Assembly: GCA_017307375.1 (NCBI GenBank)
Contig: JAFKFH010000003.1
Coordinates: forward strand, 248,001 to 312,000
Source: Alphaproteobacteria bacterium
GTDB taxonomy: Bacteria; Pseudomonadota; Alphaproteobacteria; Ferrovibrionales; Ferrovibrionaceae
DNA length: 64,000 nt
Direction of reading: 5' to 3'
Shown here one piece after another: positions 4,465 to 10,077 of this stretch (the stretch's first letter is position 1; every line of letters begins with the position of its first letter). The notes beneath the pieces are model-generated. The model was given only the letters and a program-made list of their open reading frames with translations, did no database searches and had not been told where the DNA came from. The translations under genes were made by a program, and so were the position numbers.

Positions 4465-5241
4465 ATGGATGGCAAGATTGCCCTGGCGTTGCGCGACCAG
4501 GACGACCCCCTGATCGTGGCCCTGCACGGGACCGATCGCGGCCGGCGCGATCTCGGCTTCCACCATCATCCGCGGGGCCAGCTCACCGCGCTGCGCCATG
4601 GCCTGTTGACCTTCGGCACCAAACAGGGCGCCTGGGTGGTGCCGGCCGACCATGCCGTCTGGATGCCGCCGCATCATCCGCATTTCGGCTATTCGCACGG
4701 AGCGTTCGACGGGTGGAGCTGCTATGTCGCCGAGCGGCGCTGTGCCGATCTGCCGGGCCGGCCCTGCACGATCCGGGTATCGGGCCTGCTGCGCGAAGCG
4801 GTGATCCGGGCCGCCGACTGGAAGGGCGAAACCCTCGACGAGCGGCAGCATCGCCTGGCCCTCGTCATCCTCGACGAGCTGCGCGCGGCCGCCGACGAAC
4901 CGTTCGGCCTGCCGATGCCGCGTGACGCGCGATTGGTACGGATCGCCCGCGCGCTGCTGGAGGATCCCGGCGACCGGCGGGGCATGGACGAATGGGCGAG
5001 CTGGGCCGGCATCACCGAGCGGACGCTGAGCCGCCGGTTCGTCGCGGAGACCGGCCACAGCTATACCAGCTGGCGCCAGCGCGCCCGCATGATGCGCGCG
5101 CTGGAACTGCTGGCCGGCGGCGCATCGGTGACGAGCGTCGCGCTCGACCTGGGTTACGACAGCGTCTCGGCCTTCATCGCGCTGTTCAAGCGCCTGCTGG
5201 GAACCACGCCCGCCGCGTACTTCACGCATGCCTCCGGTTGA
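4465..5241 (+). CDS. AraC-family transcriptional regulator
   Basis: A 258-residue one-component regulator. The N-terminal half is a small cupin-like sensor domain (FHHHPRGQLTAL and WMPPHHPHFGY are typical of the NimR/YdeC branch). The C-terminal 100 residues form the double helix-turn-helix: WASWAGITERTLSRRF near residue 180 and VTSVALDLGYDSVSAFIALFKR near 225. It is divergent from the PPOX flavoprotein gene, a likely target. The thrS2 promoter -35 element overlaps its stop codon, so the downstream zinc island starts with no gap. Confidence 0.9.
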   Translation: MDGKIALALRDQDDPLIVALHGTDRGRRDLGFHHHPRGQLTALRHGLLTFGTKQGAWVVPADHAVWMPPHHPHFGYSHGAFDGWSCYVAERRCADLPGRPCTIRVSGLLREAVIRAADWKGETLDERQHRLALVILDELRAAADEPFGLPMPRDARLVRIARALLEDPGDRRGMDEWASWAGITERTLSRRFVAETGHSYTSWRQRARMMRALELLAGGASVTSVALDLGYDSVSAFIALFKRLLGTTPAAYFTHASG

Positions 5242-5266
5242 CGCCCGCGGAATCTGCGCCTATTTT
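5238..5266 (+). promoter_or_regulatory. Sigma-70-type promoter of the thrS2 leader
   Basis: TTGACG (5238-5243) and TATTTT (5261-5266) are separated by exactly 17 bp. The expected transcription start, about 7 nt after the -10, coincides with the ATG at 5273, so the leader peptide may be translated from a leaderless mRNA. Read from sequence; not tested. Confidence 0.65.
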
Positions 5267-5272
5267 CCGGCG

Positions 5273-5353
5273 ATGGCCCACCCCGTCAGCATGACCCTGA
5301 CTACCACCACTACCGCCGTCCGGCGGTCGCGGTGGGCGCGCGCCTCGATCTAG
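5273..5353 (+). CDS. Thr-rich leader peptide of thrS2 attenuator
   Basis: A 26-codon frame whose second methionine (5291) starts the 20-residue peptide MTLTTTTTAVRRSRWARASI. Six of its first eight residues are threonine, in a codon run at 5294-5314, ending in TAG at 5351. No Shine-Dalgarno is visible before either ATG. The promoter places the RNA start at about 5273, which favours leaderless translation from the first ATG. It is followed by a terminator hairpin with a T run and then by the threonyl-tRNA synthetase gene, the arrangement of a classical amino-acid attenuator. A ribosome stalling on the Thr codons for lack of charged tRNA-Thr would leave 5321-5336 free to pair with 5371-5388. Peptide function is regulatory only, by inference. 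Confidence 0.8.
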   Translation: MAHPVSMTLTTTTTAVRRSRWARASI

Positions 5354-5406
5354 GCGCGCCAGCGTCAAGCCCCACCGCAGCCCCGCCGGCGACGGACGGG
5401 GCTTTT
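5321..5406 (+). terminator. Attenuator: antiterminator and intrinsic terminator before thrS2
   Basis: Terminator: AGCCCCG (5379-5385) pairs with CGGGGCT (5397-5403), and with the next bases gives a short T run (5403-5406). Competing antiterminator: CGGCGG (5321-5326) with CCGCCG (5383-5388), plus GCGGTGGG (5329-5336) with CCCACCGC (5371-5378). These pairings share bases 5383-5385, so the two forms exclude each other. A further 7-bp hairpin, 5335-5341 with 5354-5360, could act as pause or protector. Pairings were read by eye, without energies. Confidence 0.75.
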
Positions 5407-5477
5407 GCATTTCTGGGCCATAGACACCAGCACCAGACCCCGATCCGCCCGCCGGCTTCCCCATCAGGAGACCGACC

Positions 5478-6674
5478 ATGGATCTGCACGATCACCGCGC
5501 CATCGCCAACCGCCTCGACCTTTTCCACCAGCAGGACGAAGGGCCGGGCATGGTGTTCTGGCATCCCCGCGGCTTTGCCCTGTTCCGCGTCATCGAGGAC
5601 CATGTCCGCCGCCACATGCGCGCGGCCGGGTATCGCGAAGTCAGGACGCCGCAACTGCTGGCCCGCTCGCTGTGGGAACAGAGCGGCCATTGGGAGAAGT
5701 TCGGCGAGAACATGTTCGCGCTGAACGACGACGACCGCGCCGCGGCGCTGAAGCCGATGAGCTGCCCCGGCCATATCCAGATCTTCAACAAGCGGGTGCG
5801 CTCGTTCCGCGACCTGCCGCTGCGGCTGGCCGAATTCGGCATGTGCCATCGCTACGAGCCGTCCGGCGCGCTGCACGGCATCATGCGGCTGCGCGCCTTC
5901 ACCCAGGACGACGCGCATGTGTTCTGCGCCGAGGACCAGGTAGTCACCGAGGTCGCGCGCTTTGCCGGGCTGCTGCGCCGGCTCTATGCCGATTTCGGCT
6001 TCGACGACATCGTCGTCGGCTTCTCGACGCGGCCGCAGATCCGTGCCGGATCGGACGACGCCTGGGACAAGGCCGAGGCCATGCTGGCCGAAGCGGCGCG
6101 GGCCGCCGGTCTCGCCCCCGAGTTGAAGCCGGGCGAGGGCGCGTTCTATGGCCCCAAGCTCGAATTCGGCCTGCGCGACCGGCTCGGCCGCGTCTGGCAA
6201 TGCGGCACCGCGCAAATGGACTTCGTGCTGCCCGAGCGGCTCGACGCCCATTACGTCGATGCCGACAACAATCGCGTCCGGCCCGTGATCATCCACCATG
6301 CCGCGCTGGGCTCGATCGAGCGGTTCATCGGCATCCTGCTCGAACAGCATGACGGCCGGCTGCCGCTGTGGCTGGCGCCCGAGCAGGTGCTGGTCGCCTC
6401 GATCGGGCCGGAAGCGACCGATGCGGCCGGCGCCGTGGCCCAGGCCTTCGGCGACGCCGACCTGCGCGTGGCCCTCGACCAGCGGCCCGAGCGACTGGGC
6501 CGCAAGGTGGTGCGGGCACACGAGGAAGGGATTCCGGTGCTGGCCGCGATCGGCCGCCGCGAGGCCGAGGAAGGCACGGTCAGCCTGCGCTGGCCCGATG
6601 GCGGGCAGGAGCGGCTGGCGCTGTCGGCGGCGATCGCCCGCATCGCCGAGGCGGCGCGGCCGGGCGTCTTATAA
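5478..6674 (+). CDS. thrS2: Threonyl-tRNA synthetase paralogue lacking TGS and editing domains
   Basis: A 398-residue class II aminoacyl-tRNA synthetase that charges tRNA-Thr. It starts where the catalytic core of the ~640-residue housekeeping enzyme begins, so the TGS and N2 editing domains are absent. The core is complete: motif 2 (RYEPSGALHGIMRLRAFTQ), motif 3 (ALGSIERFIGILLE), zinc ligands Cys96, His147 and His273, and an anticodon-binding domain from about 300. AGGAG precedes the ATG. Such short ThrRS paralogues are known to cluster with COG0523 and Zur-controlled genes, as here. Because the zinc ligands are kept, it probably still binds zinc, perhaps more tightly, rather than being zinc-free. 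Without editing it could mis-charge serine unless another enzyme edits in trans. It is controlled by the Thr leader upstream. Confidence 0.93.
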   Translation: MDLHDHRAIANRLDLFHQQDEGPGMVFWHPRGFALFRVIEDHVRRHMRAAGYREVRTPQLLARSLWEQSGHWEKFGENMFALNDDDRAAALKPMSCPGHIQIFNKRVRSFRDLPLRLAEFGMCHRYEPSGALHGIMRLRAFTQDDAHVFCAEDQVVTEVARFAGLLRRLYADFGFDDIVVGFSTRPQIRAGSDDAWDKAEAMLAEAARAAGLAPELKPGEGAFYGPKLEFGLRDRLGRVWQCGTAQMDFVLPERLDAHYVDADNNRVRPVIIHHAALGSIERFIGILLEQHDGRLPLWLAPEQVLVASIGPEATDAAGAVAQAFGDADLRVALDQRPERLGRKVVRAHEEGIPVLAAIGRREAEEGTVSLRWPDGGQERLALSAAIARIAEAARPGVL

Positions 6675-6686
6675 CGTTATAACGTT
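6673..6686. promoter_or_regulatory. Candidate Zur box upstream of znuA-like gene
   Basis: A perfect 14-bp palindrome, AACGTTATAACGTT, overlapping the thrS2 stop codon and 63 bp before the znuA-like ATG. The GTTATAAC core matches the alphaproteobacterial Zur operator as I know it. A second copy of the same core precedes the COG0523 gene at 10060. Assignment to Zur is by motif and context. Confidence 0.7.
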
Positions 6687-6712
6687 GCAAAATGGGAGTA
6701 GCGGGACTAAAA

Positions 6713-6740
6713 CCTCCGGCGGATCGTCGTCTGCCGGAGG
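6713..6740 (+). promoter_or_regulatory. Hairpin masking the znuA-like ribosome-binding site
   Basis: CCTCCGGC (6713-6720) pairs perfectly with GCCGGAGG (6733-6740) around a 12-nt loop. The 3' arm contains the GGAGG that serves as Shine-Dalgarno for the ATG at 6750. It could be a translational control element or a weak terminator without a T run. Confidence 0.5.
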
Positions 6741-6749
6741 GGGCCCGTC

Positions 6750-7688
6750 ATGCCCGGATTCTTCAGAACACTCGTCATCGCGGGCGCCATCGCGCTCGCC
6801 GCCACCACGGCTGCAGCCGCCGCACCGTTGAAAGTCGTGGCGAGCTTTTCGATCCTGGGCGACATGGTCGCCCAGGTCGGTGGCGATCTCGTCACCGTGC
6901 GCACGCTGGTCGGCCCCGACGGCGACGCCCATGTCTACCAGCCGACACCGGGCGACGCGCAGGCCGTGGCCGGCGCCGGCCTCGTCGTCGTCAACGGGCT
7001 GGGCTTCGAAGGCTGGCTCAATCGCCTGGTCGGCGCCGCCGGCTATCGCGGGCGGGTGGTCACCGCCACCGCCGGTGTCACGGCCCAGACCATGGTCGAG
7101 GACGAGGATGAAGCCGGCATCACCCGTCCCGGCCGCAAGGTGGTGACGCCCAAGCGGATCGAGGATCCGCATGCCTGGCAGGACCTGCGCAACGGCGTCA
7201 TCTACATCCGCAACATCGCCGAGGGCCTGGCCGCGGCCGACCCGGCCAATGCCGCGACCTACCGGTCGCGGGCCCAGGCCTATAGCGACGAACTGAAGTC
7301 GCTCGATCGCTGGGTGCGCGACACCCTCGAGCCGGTGCCGGCCGACCGGCGCAAGGTGATCACCGGCCACGACGCCTTCGGCTACTTCGCGAATGCCTAC
7401 GGCGTCATGTTCGTCGCGCCGGTCGGCATCTCGACCGAGGCCGAGCCGACCGCCGCCGGCGTTGCCCGGCTGATCCGCCAGATCCGCGAGGAACACATCA
7501 AGGCCCTGTTCGTCGAGAACATGACCGACCCGCGGCTGATCGAGCAGATCGGGCGCGAAACCGGGGCCCAGCCGGGCGGGACGCTCTATGCCGACGCACT
7601 GTCCGGCCCGACCGGCCCGGCCGCCACCTATGTCGCGATGTTCCGCCATAACGCGACGCTGCTGGCCGCGGCGATGCGCCGTAACTGA
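6750..7688 (+). CDS. Zinc ABC transporter substrate-binding protein, AztC/ZnuA-like
   Basis: A 312-residue periplasmic metal-binding protein of the cluster A-I family. A signal peptide covers about residues 1-25 (cleavage after AAAAA). The predicted ligands are His61, His141, His207 and Asp282, nearly the same numbering as I recall for the zinc carrier AztC; there is no ZnuA-style His-rich loop, only a short acidic stretch (EDEDE) near 120. It follows a Zur-like palindrome and is followed by two outer-membrane barrels. No ATPase or permease gene lies in this window, so it must work with a transporter encoded elsewhere. Zinc rather than manganese is inferred from the context of COG0523, ThrRS2 and DUF1826. 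Confidence 0.88.
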   Translation: MPGFFRTLVIAGAIALAATTAAAAAPLKVVASFSILGDMVAQVGGDLVTVRTLVGPDGDAHVYQPTPGDAQAVAGAGLVVVNGLGFEGWLNRLVGAAGYRGRVVTATAGVTAQTMVEDEDEAGITRPGRKVVTPKRIEDPHAWQDLRNGVIYIRNIAEGLAAADPANAATYRSRAQAYSDELKSLDRWVRDTLEPVPADRRKVITGHDAFGYFANAYGVMFVAPVGISTEAEPTAAGVARLIRQIREEHIKALFVENMTDPRLIEQIGRETGAQPGGTLYADALSGPTGPAATYVAMFRHNATLLAAAMRRN

Positions 7689-7698
7689 GGACACGATC

Positions 7699-8886
7699 AT
7701 GCGCCGCATCATTCTTGCCGCCGCGGCGGCCACCGGCCTCGCCGCGCCCGCTTTCGCCCAGGACGGCATCGGCGATCCGCCGGCCGGCCGCGACATCTCG
7801 ACCGACGCAGGCGACGTCCGCCGCCCGGCCGGCGGCATGTCCTACCCGCATCTGACCGGCGAGATCGAGCTGCAGATGCAGGCCGACAAGCTGGTGAAGG
7901 CGCCGTCGGGCACAAACCGGAATGCCAACGTCTTCTCCGATTCGGAAGCCAATTTCGGCCTGTTCCTGACCCGCGAATTCTCGATCCAGACCACCTTCCA
8001 CCTCGACCAGGTCAAGGAGCAGGAGAAGGGCGGTTTCCTGCGCGGCCAGGCGATGTTCCTGGAACAGGCCTTCGTCAACTACGAGACCAGCGGCTACGCC
8101 GCCTATGCCGGCAAGTTCAACCCGCAGTTCGGCATGTTCTGGGACCGGGCGCCCGGCGTCTACGGCGATGCCTTCTCGAAGGAAGACTACGAACTGACCG
8201 AGGCGATCGGCGCCGGCGGTGCCGTCAAGTTCGACACCCTGTCCTTCGGCAGCCACGAACTGGGCGCCGCGGGCTGGTTCAAGGACAACACGTCGCTGTC
8301 GTGGAGCCTGATGAACCGGCCGTCCTTCGGTGCGGACACCACGCTGCGCGTCGGCCAGAATCGCCGCGCCTATGGCGGTGCGGGCAATACCGCCGGGCCG
8401 CAATCCTGGTCGGCCAGCCTGCGCGGCGACCAGTTCGCGATCGCCCCCAACCTCGCCTACAACCTCGATTTCTCGAGCCTGGCGGCCGGCGTCGACGGTA
8501 CCGCGCGCCAGTCGATGCTGGCCGCCGGGCTGCAATACCAGGTGCCGATGCCCAAGGGCTGGAAGCTGGTGCCGCTGGCCGAATATGTCCGCATCTGGCA
8601 TGTAGACGGCGACCCCGCCGGCGTCCGGCAGGACCGCACGCTGGTCAATGCCGGCCTGGCACTGGGCTGGCAGAAATGGACGCTGTCGGGCGTCATGGGC
8701 TGGCGCAATACCGATGCGCCGTCGGATGGCAGCGCCGATGCCACGCGCGATCGGCTGGCGACGGTCTCGCTGGGCTACGAATTCGATTTCGGACTGGAAC
8801 TGCAGGCCGGCTGGGCACGCACCCGCGTGGCCGGCGATACCACCCAGACCCTCGGCGCGCTAGCCACCTATAGGTATCGCTTCTGA
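7699..8886 (+). CDS. Outer-membrane beta-barrel (porin-like) protein, paralogue 1
   Basis: A 395-residue exported protein: signal peptide of about 20 residues ending AFAQ, alternating hydrophobic strands throughout, and a C-terminal YRYRF, the aromatic end recognised by the BAM machinery. It shares the blocks AGKFNPQFGMFW, WFKDNT and PLAEYVRIW with the next gene, so the two arose by duplication. A frame extends upstream into the znuA-like gene; ATG 7699 is chosen for its signal peptide and the GAGGA ribosome-binding site. Its place 10 bp after a zinc-binding protein and before a COG0523 GTPase suggests passage of zinc or a zinc chelate across the outer membrane. That role is inference; it could be a generic porin. 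Confidence 0.82.
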   Translation: MRRIILAAAAATGLAAPAFAQDGIGDPPAGRDISTDAGDVRRPAGGMSYPHLTGEIELQMQADKLVKAPSGTNRNANVFSDSEANFGLFLTREFSIQTTFHLDQVKEQEKGGFLRGQAMFLEQAFVNYETSGYAAYAGKFNPQFGMFWDRAPGVYGDAFSKEDYELTEAIGAGGAVKFDTLSFGSHELGAAGWFKDNTSLSWSLMNRPSFGADTTLRVGQNRRAYGGAGNTAGPQSWSASLRGDQFAIAPNLAYNLDFSSLAAGVDGTARQSMLAAGLQYQVPMPKGWKLVPLAEYVRIWHVDGDPAGVRQDRTLVNAGLALGWQKWTLSGVMGWRNTDAPSDGSADATRDRLATVSLGYEFDFGLELQAGWARTRVAGDTTQTLGALATYRYRF

Positions 8887-8936: not shown

Positions 8937-10052
8937 ATGCCGCGCCGGTTCATCCTGGCGGCAGCCTTCGCTGCCGCGCTGCCCTCGCCCGCCCTCGCCC
9001 AGCAGACGGTCGATGCACCGGACCAGATCGACCGCCCGGTCGTCCGGGGCAACCTGCAGCTGCAATTGCAGACCGACAAGAACGTCCGCGGCGGTAGCTA
9101 CGGTCCCAACAGCTACATCTCCGACAGCCCGTTCAATGCCGCCCTGTTTCTCGACCGGCACTGGTCGCTGCAGGGAACGCTCTATCTCAACCAGGTCCGC
9201 ACGCCGGCCGGCGGCGGCCTGCTCCAGGGCCAGGGCCTGTACCTGCAGCAGGCTTTCGTCAACTACGATGCCGAGCGGGTGACTGCCTTCGCCGGCAAGT
9301 TCAACCCGCAGTTCGGCATGTTCTGGGGCGCGGCACCGGGGGTCTACGGCAACAATTTCGCGGAAAACGACTATTGGCTGACCGAGGGCATCGGGGCGGG
9401 CGCCGGGCTGAAATTCGCCGGCCTCGGCGATGACCGCGTGACCCTGGCGGCATGGTTCAAGGACAATACGGCGCTGTCGACCAGCCTGTTCGACCGCCCG
9501 GCCTTCGGTCAGCCGTCGACCGTCCGGCCCGGCCGGCTGCGTCTCGGCGATGGCGGGGCCGGCAACAGCCGCGGCCCGACCTCGTTCACCCTGTCCTGGC
9601 GCAGCGGCAACGCCGGCGGCATCGACGGCCTGCAGACCAATGTCGACCTCGCCAGCCTGGACCACGGCAACGACGGCACCCGGCGCCAGACCATGCTGGC
9701 GATCGGCGCCCAGTATCAGCTGCCGCTGGGCGGCGACTGGTCGCTGGCGCCGCTGGCCGAGTATGTCGGCATCTGGAACCTGAACGGCGCGCCCGGCGGG
9801 GTCGGGCAGGACCGCCGCTATCTCAACGCCGGTACCGCGCTGAACTGGGGGAACTGGCAGGCCTCGGCCGTCTACGGGCTGCGCAATACCGAAGGCGGCG
9901 CCACCGCGCCGCGCGACCGGCTCTATACCGCCTCGGTCGGCTACACCTTCGACAGCGGCATCAGCCTGACTGCCGGCTGGGCGCGCCAGCGCATCAGCGG
10001 CGCGACGACCGACACGATCGGCGCCATCGTCGCCTACACGGCAAAATTCTGA
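8937..10052 (+). CDS. Outer-membrane beta-barrel (porin-like) protein, paralogue 2
   Basis: A 371-residue exported barrel with a signal peptide ending ALAQQ and a terminal phenylalanine (YTAKF). It is clearly homologous to the preceding gene (AGKFNPQFGMFW, APGVYG, AWFKDNTALS, PLAEYVGIW, GVGQDRR). It differs in having a shorter N-terminal region and Gly/Asn-rich loops. A 5-bp GC hairpin (8914-8918 with 8926-8930) covers the probable Shine-Dalgarno GGGGA. It likely belongs to the operon running from the Zur-like box at 6673. Function as for its partner: a candidate outer-membrane route used under zinc shortage. Confidence 0.82.
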   Translation: MPRRFILAAAFAAALPSPALAQQTVDAPDQIDRPVVRGNLQLQLQTDKNVRGGSYGPNSYISDSPFNAALFLDRHWSLQGTLYLNQVRTPAGGGLLQGQGLYLQQAFVNYDAERVTAFAGKFNPQFGMFWGAAPGVYGNNFAENDYWLTEGIGAGAGLKFAGLGDDRVTLAAWFKDNTALSTSLFDRPAFGQPSTVRPGRLRLGDGGAGNSRGPTSFTLSWRSGNAGGIDGLQTNVDLASLDHGNDGTRRQTMLAIGAQYQLPLGGDWSLAPLAEYVGIWNLNGAPGGVGQDRRYLNAGTALNWGNWQASAVYGLRNTEGGATAPRDRLYTASVGYTFDSGISLTAGWARQRISGATTDTIGAIVAYTAKF

Positions 10053-10059
10053 GTTGATT

Positions 10060-10077
10060 GTTACGTTATAACATTTC
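10060..10077. promoter_or_regulatory. Candidate Zur box upstream of COG0523 gene
   Basis: GTTACGTTATAACATTTC is a near-palindrome with the same GTTATAAC core as the 6673 site, lying 25 bp before the start of the COG0523 GTPase gene. Both sites stand in front of genes tied to zinc, which supports Zur as the ligand protein. Confidence 0.7.

Follow-up and report, generated by a model that had tools for sequence, protein, structure and literature searches.

A putative threonine attenuator before an accessory threonyl-tRNA synthetase gene lacking the editing domain, retained in Alpha- and Betaproteobacteria

The DNA studied here is a window of 64,000 nucleotides (nt) from an Alphaproteobacteria bacterium of the family Ferrovibrionaceae (GCA_017307375.1, JAFKFH010000003.1, positions 248,001-312,000 of the forward strand; all coordinates are window positions, and the features from the promoter to znuA lie on this strand). 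It contains thrS2 (5478-6674), a gene for a 398-amino-acid threonyl-tRNA synthetase (ThrRS) and, upstream of it, a set of signals that very probably form a ribosome-mediated transcription attenuator sensing charged tRNA-Thr and placed before this accessory enzyme, ThrRS2.

The promoter (5238-5266), proposed already in a previous sequence-only reading of this DNA, consists of a -35 box TTGACG (5238-5243) and, after a spacer of 17 nt, a -10 box TATTTT (5261-5266), and it is the sole sigma-70-like match between 4800 and 6900 (shuffled sequences: mean 0.0, standard deviation 0.1). The leader open reading frame (ORF) behind it (5273-5353, probably leaderless) encodes 26 amino acids, MAHPVSMTLTTTTTAVRRSRWARASI, followed by a stop codon, with Thr codons at 5294-5296 and 5300-5314; six of the eight codons after ATG 5291 specify Thr. 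It is the only ATG-started ORF of 12-60 amino acids in the window with at least six Thr in eight residues, and none was found in five of five shuffles. In the computed fold without a ribosome, a hairpin joins the last Thr codon to the next arm (5312-5327, pairing 5312-5317 with 5322-5327) and is exclusive with an antiterminator (5320-5389), in which 5320-5326 pairs with 5383-5389 and 5329-5336 with 5371-5378 around a hairpin of 5338-5345 with 5352-5359. The predicted intrinsic terminator (5367-5406) has two overlapping registers (5367-5377 with 5393-5404, or 5379-5388 with 5393-5403) and a TTTT at 5403-5406; the alternative antiterminator and the terminator with its T run, both read earlier from the letters, are thus recovered as competing folds. 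The RNA 5278-5416 folds better than 200 of 200 shuffles (z -3.84). Two hallmarks of attenuation can be read at the locus: a short leader ORF whose codon run matches the amino acid handled by the target enzyme, and an intrinsic terminator that separates this ORF from the structural gene. A further one, an antiterminator that uses the 5' arm of the terminator and gains when a ribosome occupies the Thr codons, appears in folding only.

The product of thrS2 matches the class II core and the anticodon-binding domain only in a Pfam scan, without the TGS and editing domains, in keeping with the shortened ThrRS previously proposed, and scores 454 bits against the NCBIfam TIGR00418 cut-off of 384, which places it among the ThrRS. 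Its active-site residues match those of Escherichia coli ThrRS. The same genome holds one full-length ThrRS, 55% identical to ThrRS2 and encoded in an open frame of 729 amino acids. Together with its relatives, for which loss of the editing domain was judged from open-frame length, thrS2 forms a single clade of 59 distinct sequences (SH-aLRT, the Shimodaira-Hasegawa-like approximate likelihood ratio test, 100). A sixtieth "short" row, L092, falls outside this clade and is probably a broken full-length gene; the residue counts that follow refer to distinct sequences and include it. The zinc ligands C334, H385 and H511 are kept in all 60 short rows. Two positions, each adjoining a zinc ligand, set the short rows apart from the long ones. 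At position 333 (E. coli numbering, also below) 59 of 60 short rows have Ser and 98 of 99 long rows Asn; at position 512, His stands in 58 of 60 short rows and Arg in all 99 long ones. N333S and R512H may tune zinc binding or the choice between Thr and Ser in an enzyme without editing. In the anticodon domain, positions 575 and 589, which we presume to take part in anticodon reading, are variable among thrS2.

To follow the leader in relatives, short-thrS loci were drawn from the same family and from GTDB genomes picked by protein similarity. Thirty-five loci passed the length filter, from which L092 and L086 were dropped as their upstream regions read as coding (L092 also contains N), leaving 33. 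A leader with at least four Thr in eight codons is present in 27 of these, and the terminator motif, which was derived from the same sequences, in all 33, so that Thr-rich leaders upstream of other short thrS genes, the comparison that the sequence-only reading had called for, are indeed found. Thr is encoded in the 33 leaders mostly by ACC (130 codons), followed by ACG (46), ACT (11) and ACA (9); the leader of L053 has three Thr only. In the RNA alignments (A1 with 27 and A2 with 29 of the 33 loci) the terminator has invariant columns and a GGCGG is almost unchanged, and both-sided changes are seen in five pairs of the lower terminator stem in the 27 aligned loci. In L061, as judged by eye, GGTGGG and CCCCACC replace the usual GGCGGG and CCCCGCC, a change that restores the antiterminator pair and breaks a terminator pair. 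Among the matches listed for 385 alphaproteobacterial genomes, a covariance model of the leader lies directly 5' of 13 of 13 short thrS genes, four of which are in or near its training rows. "Short" means here an open frame of up to 519 amino acids away from contig ends, plus G307, which has a longer open frame with the leader match about 65 nt upstream; the contig-end piece G307:C390 was excluded. Leader and thrS2 are kept together in Alpha- and Betaproteobacteria, in neighbourhoods that vary (19 loci, by eye).

The relatives also bear on where the leader begins. For every locus, the in-frame ATG that has the best-scoring promoter 3-11 nt upstream was chosen. In 31 of 33 loci (exceptions L036 and L061) this ATG lies 5-10 nt past the -10 box, and the promoter outscores 95% of 6200 random positions, a control that does not mimic the choice among several ATGs. 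Because the leader ATG of relatives sits at this distance from the -10 box, which in the window ends at 5266, the start is likely ATG 5273 and not ATG 5291; the Thr-rich frame first noticed in this DNA stands with its six Thr in eight codons, and its start moves upstream. This geometry suggests that the transcript probably begins at or beside the leader ATG. As to known RNA families, neither the T-box nor the enterobacterial Thr leader is among the five Rfam matches up to E 10 in the region 4800-6800, and no Rfam match reached the gathering threshold in 18 relatives; a T-box or known Rfam leader was accordingly rejected.

Co-transcriptional folding gives the contrast between states that an attenuator would need. 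With the Thr codons masked, as by a stalled ribosome, upstream RNA sequesters the terminator 5' arm with a mean probability of 0.81 over the 33 loci. The mean falls to 0.33 when no ribosome is present and to 0.12 when one sits at the stop codon, the latter over 32 loci because L040 has no stop before the terminator. The stalled value exceeds both other states by 0.1 in 25 of 33 loci, and in the window it is 0.64 as against 0.07 with the ribosome at the stop.

Several results weigh against this reading and should be kept in view. In the window the uptake without a ribosome is 0.83, higher than the stalled 0.64, so that the full contrast is absent there. Shuffled spacers still give 0.63 compared with 0.81 for the stalled state, which is a modest contrast, even though in 31 of 33 cases the locus itself has a higher value than its shuffles. 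At equilibrium the terminator probability is nearly constant (means of 0.77 without a ribosome, 0.83 when it has reached the stop and 0.70 when it is stalled on the middle Thr codon), and the full-length fold of the window with a stalled ribosome still makes the terminator. An automatic terminator scan of the window, with a rule of five T in eight, misses the terminator. Moreover, many loci come from sister species and are non-independent, and Thr alone is not universal: the loci L007-L011, from one genus of the same family, have mixed Ile/Val/Thr leaders. These five leaders, 5' of thrS2, are near-identical (MQSIILTV..TIKVT...), which suggests a shift of the sensed amino acids. Since the terminator is favoured at equilibrium in nearly every state, the switch would hinge on the order of co-transcriptional folding, that is, on kinetic antitermination.

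From the computed parts, their conservation and the competing folds we infer the following course of events. RNA polymerase would start at or beside ATG 5273, and a ribosome would translate the leader. With ample charged tRNA-Thr, the ribosome would reach the stop codon and cover the antiterminator arm, and transcription would end at the terminator; with charged tRNA-Thr scarce, it would stall on the Thr codons, the antiterminator would form first, and thrS2 would be transcribed. ThrRS2, an accessory enzyme without editing domain, would then restore the charging of tRNA-Thr. One conserved RNA switch would thus serve the whole clade of ThrRS without editing domain and predict when these enzymes are made. 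A ThrRS inhibitor, Thr starvation or zinc loss may each lower Thr-tRNA, and we set them side by side as candidate causes.

The other genes behind the leader mark a possible gene set responding to ThrRS inhibition. In Burkholderiaceae the covariance model matches 57 of 299 genomes at E ≤1e-8. Of 68 matches listed, 46 were classified by similarity: 21 precede thrS2 (one, L219, partial), 15 isochorismatase-like hydrolases (L265 and L271 partial), three ABM-domain proteins, two transporters of the major facilitator superfamily (MFS) and one a full-length ThrRS with S463 and M489, while four are unmatched (L229, L270, L274 and L277, the last three with leaders without Thr runs). Three more of the 68 are thrS2 loci already known (L187, L194, L195), L204 and L207 have no or only a weak match, and 17 lie outside the classification. 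Domain scans of a single representative per new kind gave PF00857, PF03992 and PF07690 and, for the synthetase, a ThrRS that has TGS and SAD domains. The hydrolase genes stand behind Thr-rich leaders (L259-L265, L268, L271-L273, L275, L276, L240, which equals L278, and L241), the ABM genes behind a Thr/Ile leader (L266, L267, L269) and the MFS genes behind a Thr leader (L230, L232 and, as a third case from a separate scan, L201). The N-terminal residues of the MFS proteins resemble by eye the start of thrS2, as though a regulatory region of thrS2 had been captured by the transporter gene. Outside this set, G068 has a full-length Gly463 ThrRS, the sole ThrRS listed there, behind a Thr leader. 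The genome of the window itself has, at L142 (C12, 217689-217795), a Thr/Lys/Met leader (MSTMTKTTRTTKTTAPAG...) with the same type of terminator before asd (scanned), and in several alphaproteobacterial genomes Thr/Lys-rich leaders precede genes whose protein starts look like aspartate-semialdehyde dehydrogenase (by eye).

The likeliest alternative concerns purpose and leaves the mechanism as it is: inhibition of ThrRS by natural compounds such as borrelidin or obafluorin would lower Thr-tRNA, open the attenuator and supply a spare synthetase, an inducible protection that we regard as plausible, if short of probable. The hydrolase, ABM, MFS and S463/M489 ThrRS genes behind leaders of the same model point this way, although the roles of hydrolase, ABM protein and transporter are putative. 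The auxiliary synthetase trpRS1, taken up below, may serve as a precedent. In E. coli a raised level of ThrRS is reported to be among the ways of becoming resistant to borrelidin (PMC4389257), and according to PMC11252418, ObaO has the substitutions S463 and M489, G463S alone confers resistance to obafluorin and borrelidin, and L489M alone gives no obafluorin resistance. On the other side, thrS2 itself has G463 in all 60 rows and L489 in 55 (Met in five); a resistance substitution G463S in thrS2 of the ObaO type was therefore rejected. A search by identity in 398 Burkholderiaceae genomes singled out two ObaO-like ThrRS with S463, only one of which has the leader; the second (G493), 79% identical, with S463 and with a Met in the 489 stretch, lacks a Thr leader. 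No obafluorin gene cluster was obvious around either gene within about 17-20 kb on each side in G430 and 12-14 kb in G493, as judged from ORF starts only, and such a cluster was rejected as their setting. G800 has two ThrRS genes.

Extended to Alpha- and Betaproteobacteria at large, the idea becomes that of a reusable Thr attenuator through which failure of ThrRS is sensed and inducible defence against natural products that target ThrRS is organized; in this form it is tentative and rather doubtful. If true, the defence set would be thrS2 in most of these organisms, to which Burkholderiaceae would add genes for efflux pump, hydrolase, ABM protein and ObaO-like ThrRS, each behind a leader that the one model recognizes. 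What the ribosome sensed would be the lost activity of the target rather than the drug, and one switch could serve for any inhibitor.

A different trigger was put forward by the sequence-only reading, in which the housekeeping ThrRS fails for lack of zinc, and the ensuing rise in uncharged tRNA-Thr turns on thrS2 as part of a zinc-starvation island. The zinc genes are there: downstream of thrS2 lie znuA, for a ZnuA-family metal-binding protein (6750-7688), zigA (10102) and a gene for a DUF1826 protein (11328). The Zur-box-like element GTTATAAC occurs twice in the window where 0.01 is expected: at 6676 (6676-6683), between thrS2 and znuA and outside the attenuator, and at 10065, before zigA; both are candidate Zur sites. 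Between znuA and zigA, two related proteins (7690-8883 and 8937-10049; 51% over part of their length) without Pfam match are perhaps outer-membrane proteins of the zinc island.

Zur-linked ThrRS paralogues that keep their zinc ligands have been reported (PMC2770081), as has Zur control of the Anabaena ThrRS T2 (PMC4787780), and the substitutions N333S and R512H beside the ligands affect nearly the whole clade. These precedents make the zinc idea reasonable by analogy, but nothing here ties the thrS2 clade to zinc. The ligands themselves are retained throughout. From -160 to +20 nt around the leader ATG of the 33 loci there is no exact GTTATAAC, which agrees with the earlier view that thrS2 is switched on without Zur, and the only one-mismatch sites, two in number, both fall on -10 boxes (L006, L035). 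Relatives of znuA, zigA and the DUF1826 gene occur in none of the 32 other loci, the flanks covered being 1.5 kb in loci of the family and at most 4 kb elsewhere. Likewise, zigA (E ≤1e-60) or ZnuA (E ≤1e-20) was not found near thrS2 in any of 35 other thrS2 genomes: four have it on the thrS2 contig but at a distance of 0.76-2.2 Mb, and 31 have it only on different contigs or lack it, so that closeness across contig ends is possible there. Of the signs by which Zur-regulated zinc sparing could be recognized, a Zur box in the promoter, a conserved zinc neighbourhood and, in some such paralogues, loss of the ligands, none was found, and zinc as a conserved input was rejected on the synteny, Zur-box and ligand results. 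We hold the zinc-starvation scenario to be improbable, and zinc unlikely to be the general trigger of the leader, though in this genome zinc loss could be one cause of uncharged tRNA-Thr, to which the adjacency here is the sole pointer. The case illustrates that gene neighbours can mislead, since zinc genes were found beside thrS2 in one of the 36 thrS2 genomes compared, the present one. Inhibition of ThrRS by natural products is better supported than zinc as a candidate for a specific trigger.

That leader ORF and hairpins arose by chance, or belong to a separate small-RNA gene unrelated to the control of thrS2, is very improbable indeed: GC-rich sequence does pair readily, as the shuffled-spacer value shows, but the leader has stayed with thrS2 across both classes and in varied surroundings.

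A Thr attenuator before a short accessory ThrRS has relatives among known systems. Reportedly, trpRS1 of Streptomyces coelicolor (Vecchione and Sello in 2010) is an auxiliary, antibiotic-resistant TrpRS under ribosome-mediated attenuation, and would thus share with thrS2 the control of an accessory synthetase gene, but for another amino acid and in another phylum. The sequence-only reading had held a peptide attenuator on an alternative ThrRS to be, to its knowledge, an arrangement not yet described; for synthetase genes in general, such novelty is contradicted by several published cases. Classical attenuation has been described for pheST, trpS and leuS, in gammaproteobacteria (pheST) and in some Streptomyces (PMC1262725), where the amino acids differ, and for a hisS paralogue in bacilli (PMC2965389). 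Similar by description is thrL before thrS in Streptomyces lividans TK24, a proposed leaderless Thr leader peptide, which differs in having two Thr codons only and no clear terminator (PMC8079986). Among open-licence papers, judged by titles, abstract openings and passages, none was found that describes a Thr attenuator before a short thrS gene of proteobacteria. Among enzymes, ObaO of obafluorin producers is likewise a spare ThrRS, and a full-length S463/M489 ThrRS in one Burkholderiaceae genome has a leader of the present kind, but ObaO owes its resistance to Ser463, whereas ThrRS2 is short and has Gly463 (PMC11252418, PMC10619133). The Anabaena T2 is a second ThrRS with zinc ligands kept; in contrast to ThrRS2, it retains the editing domain, with an insert, and is repressed by Zur (PMC4787780). 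Among alphaproteobacterial leaders, trpL of Sinorhizobium meliloti is similar in that its RNA begins at the leader ATG, with Trp codons and trpE(G) as target instead (PMC7298713). Attenuation of synthetase genes is already known, and the Thr attenuator on a short accessory ThrRS adds a case.

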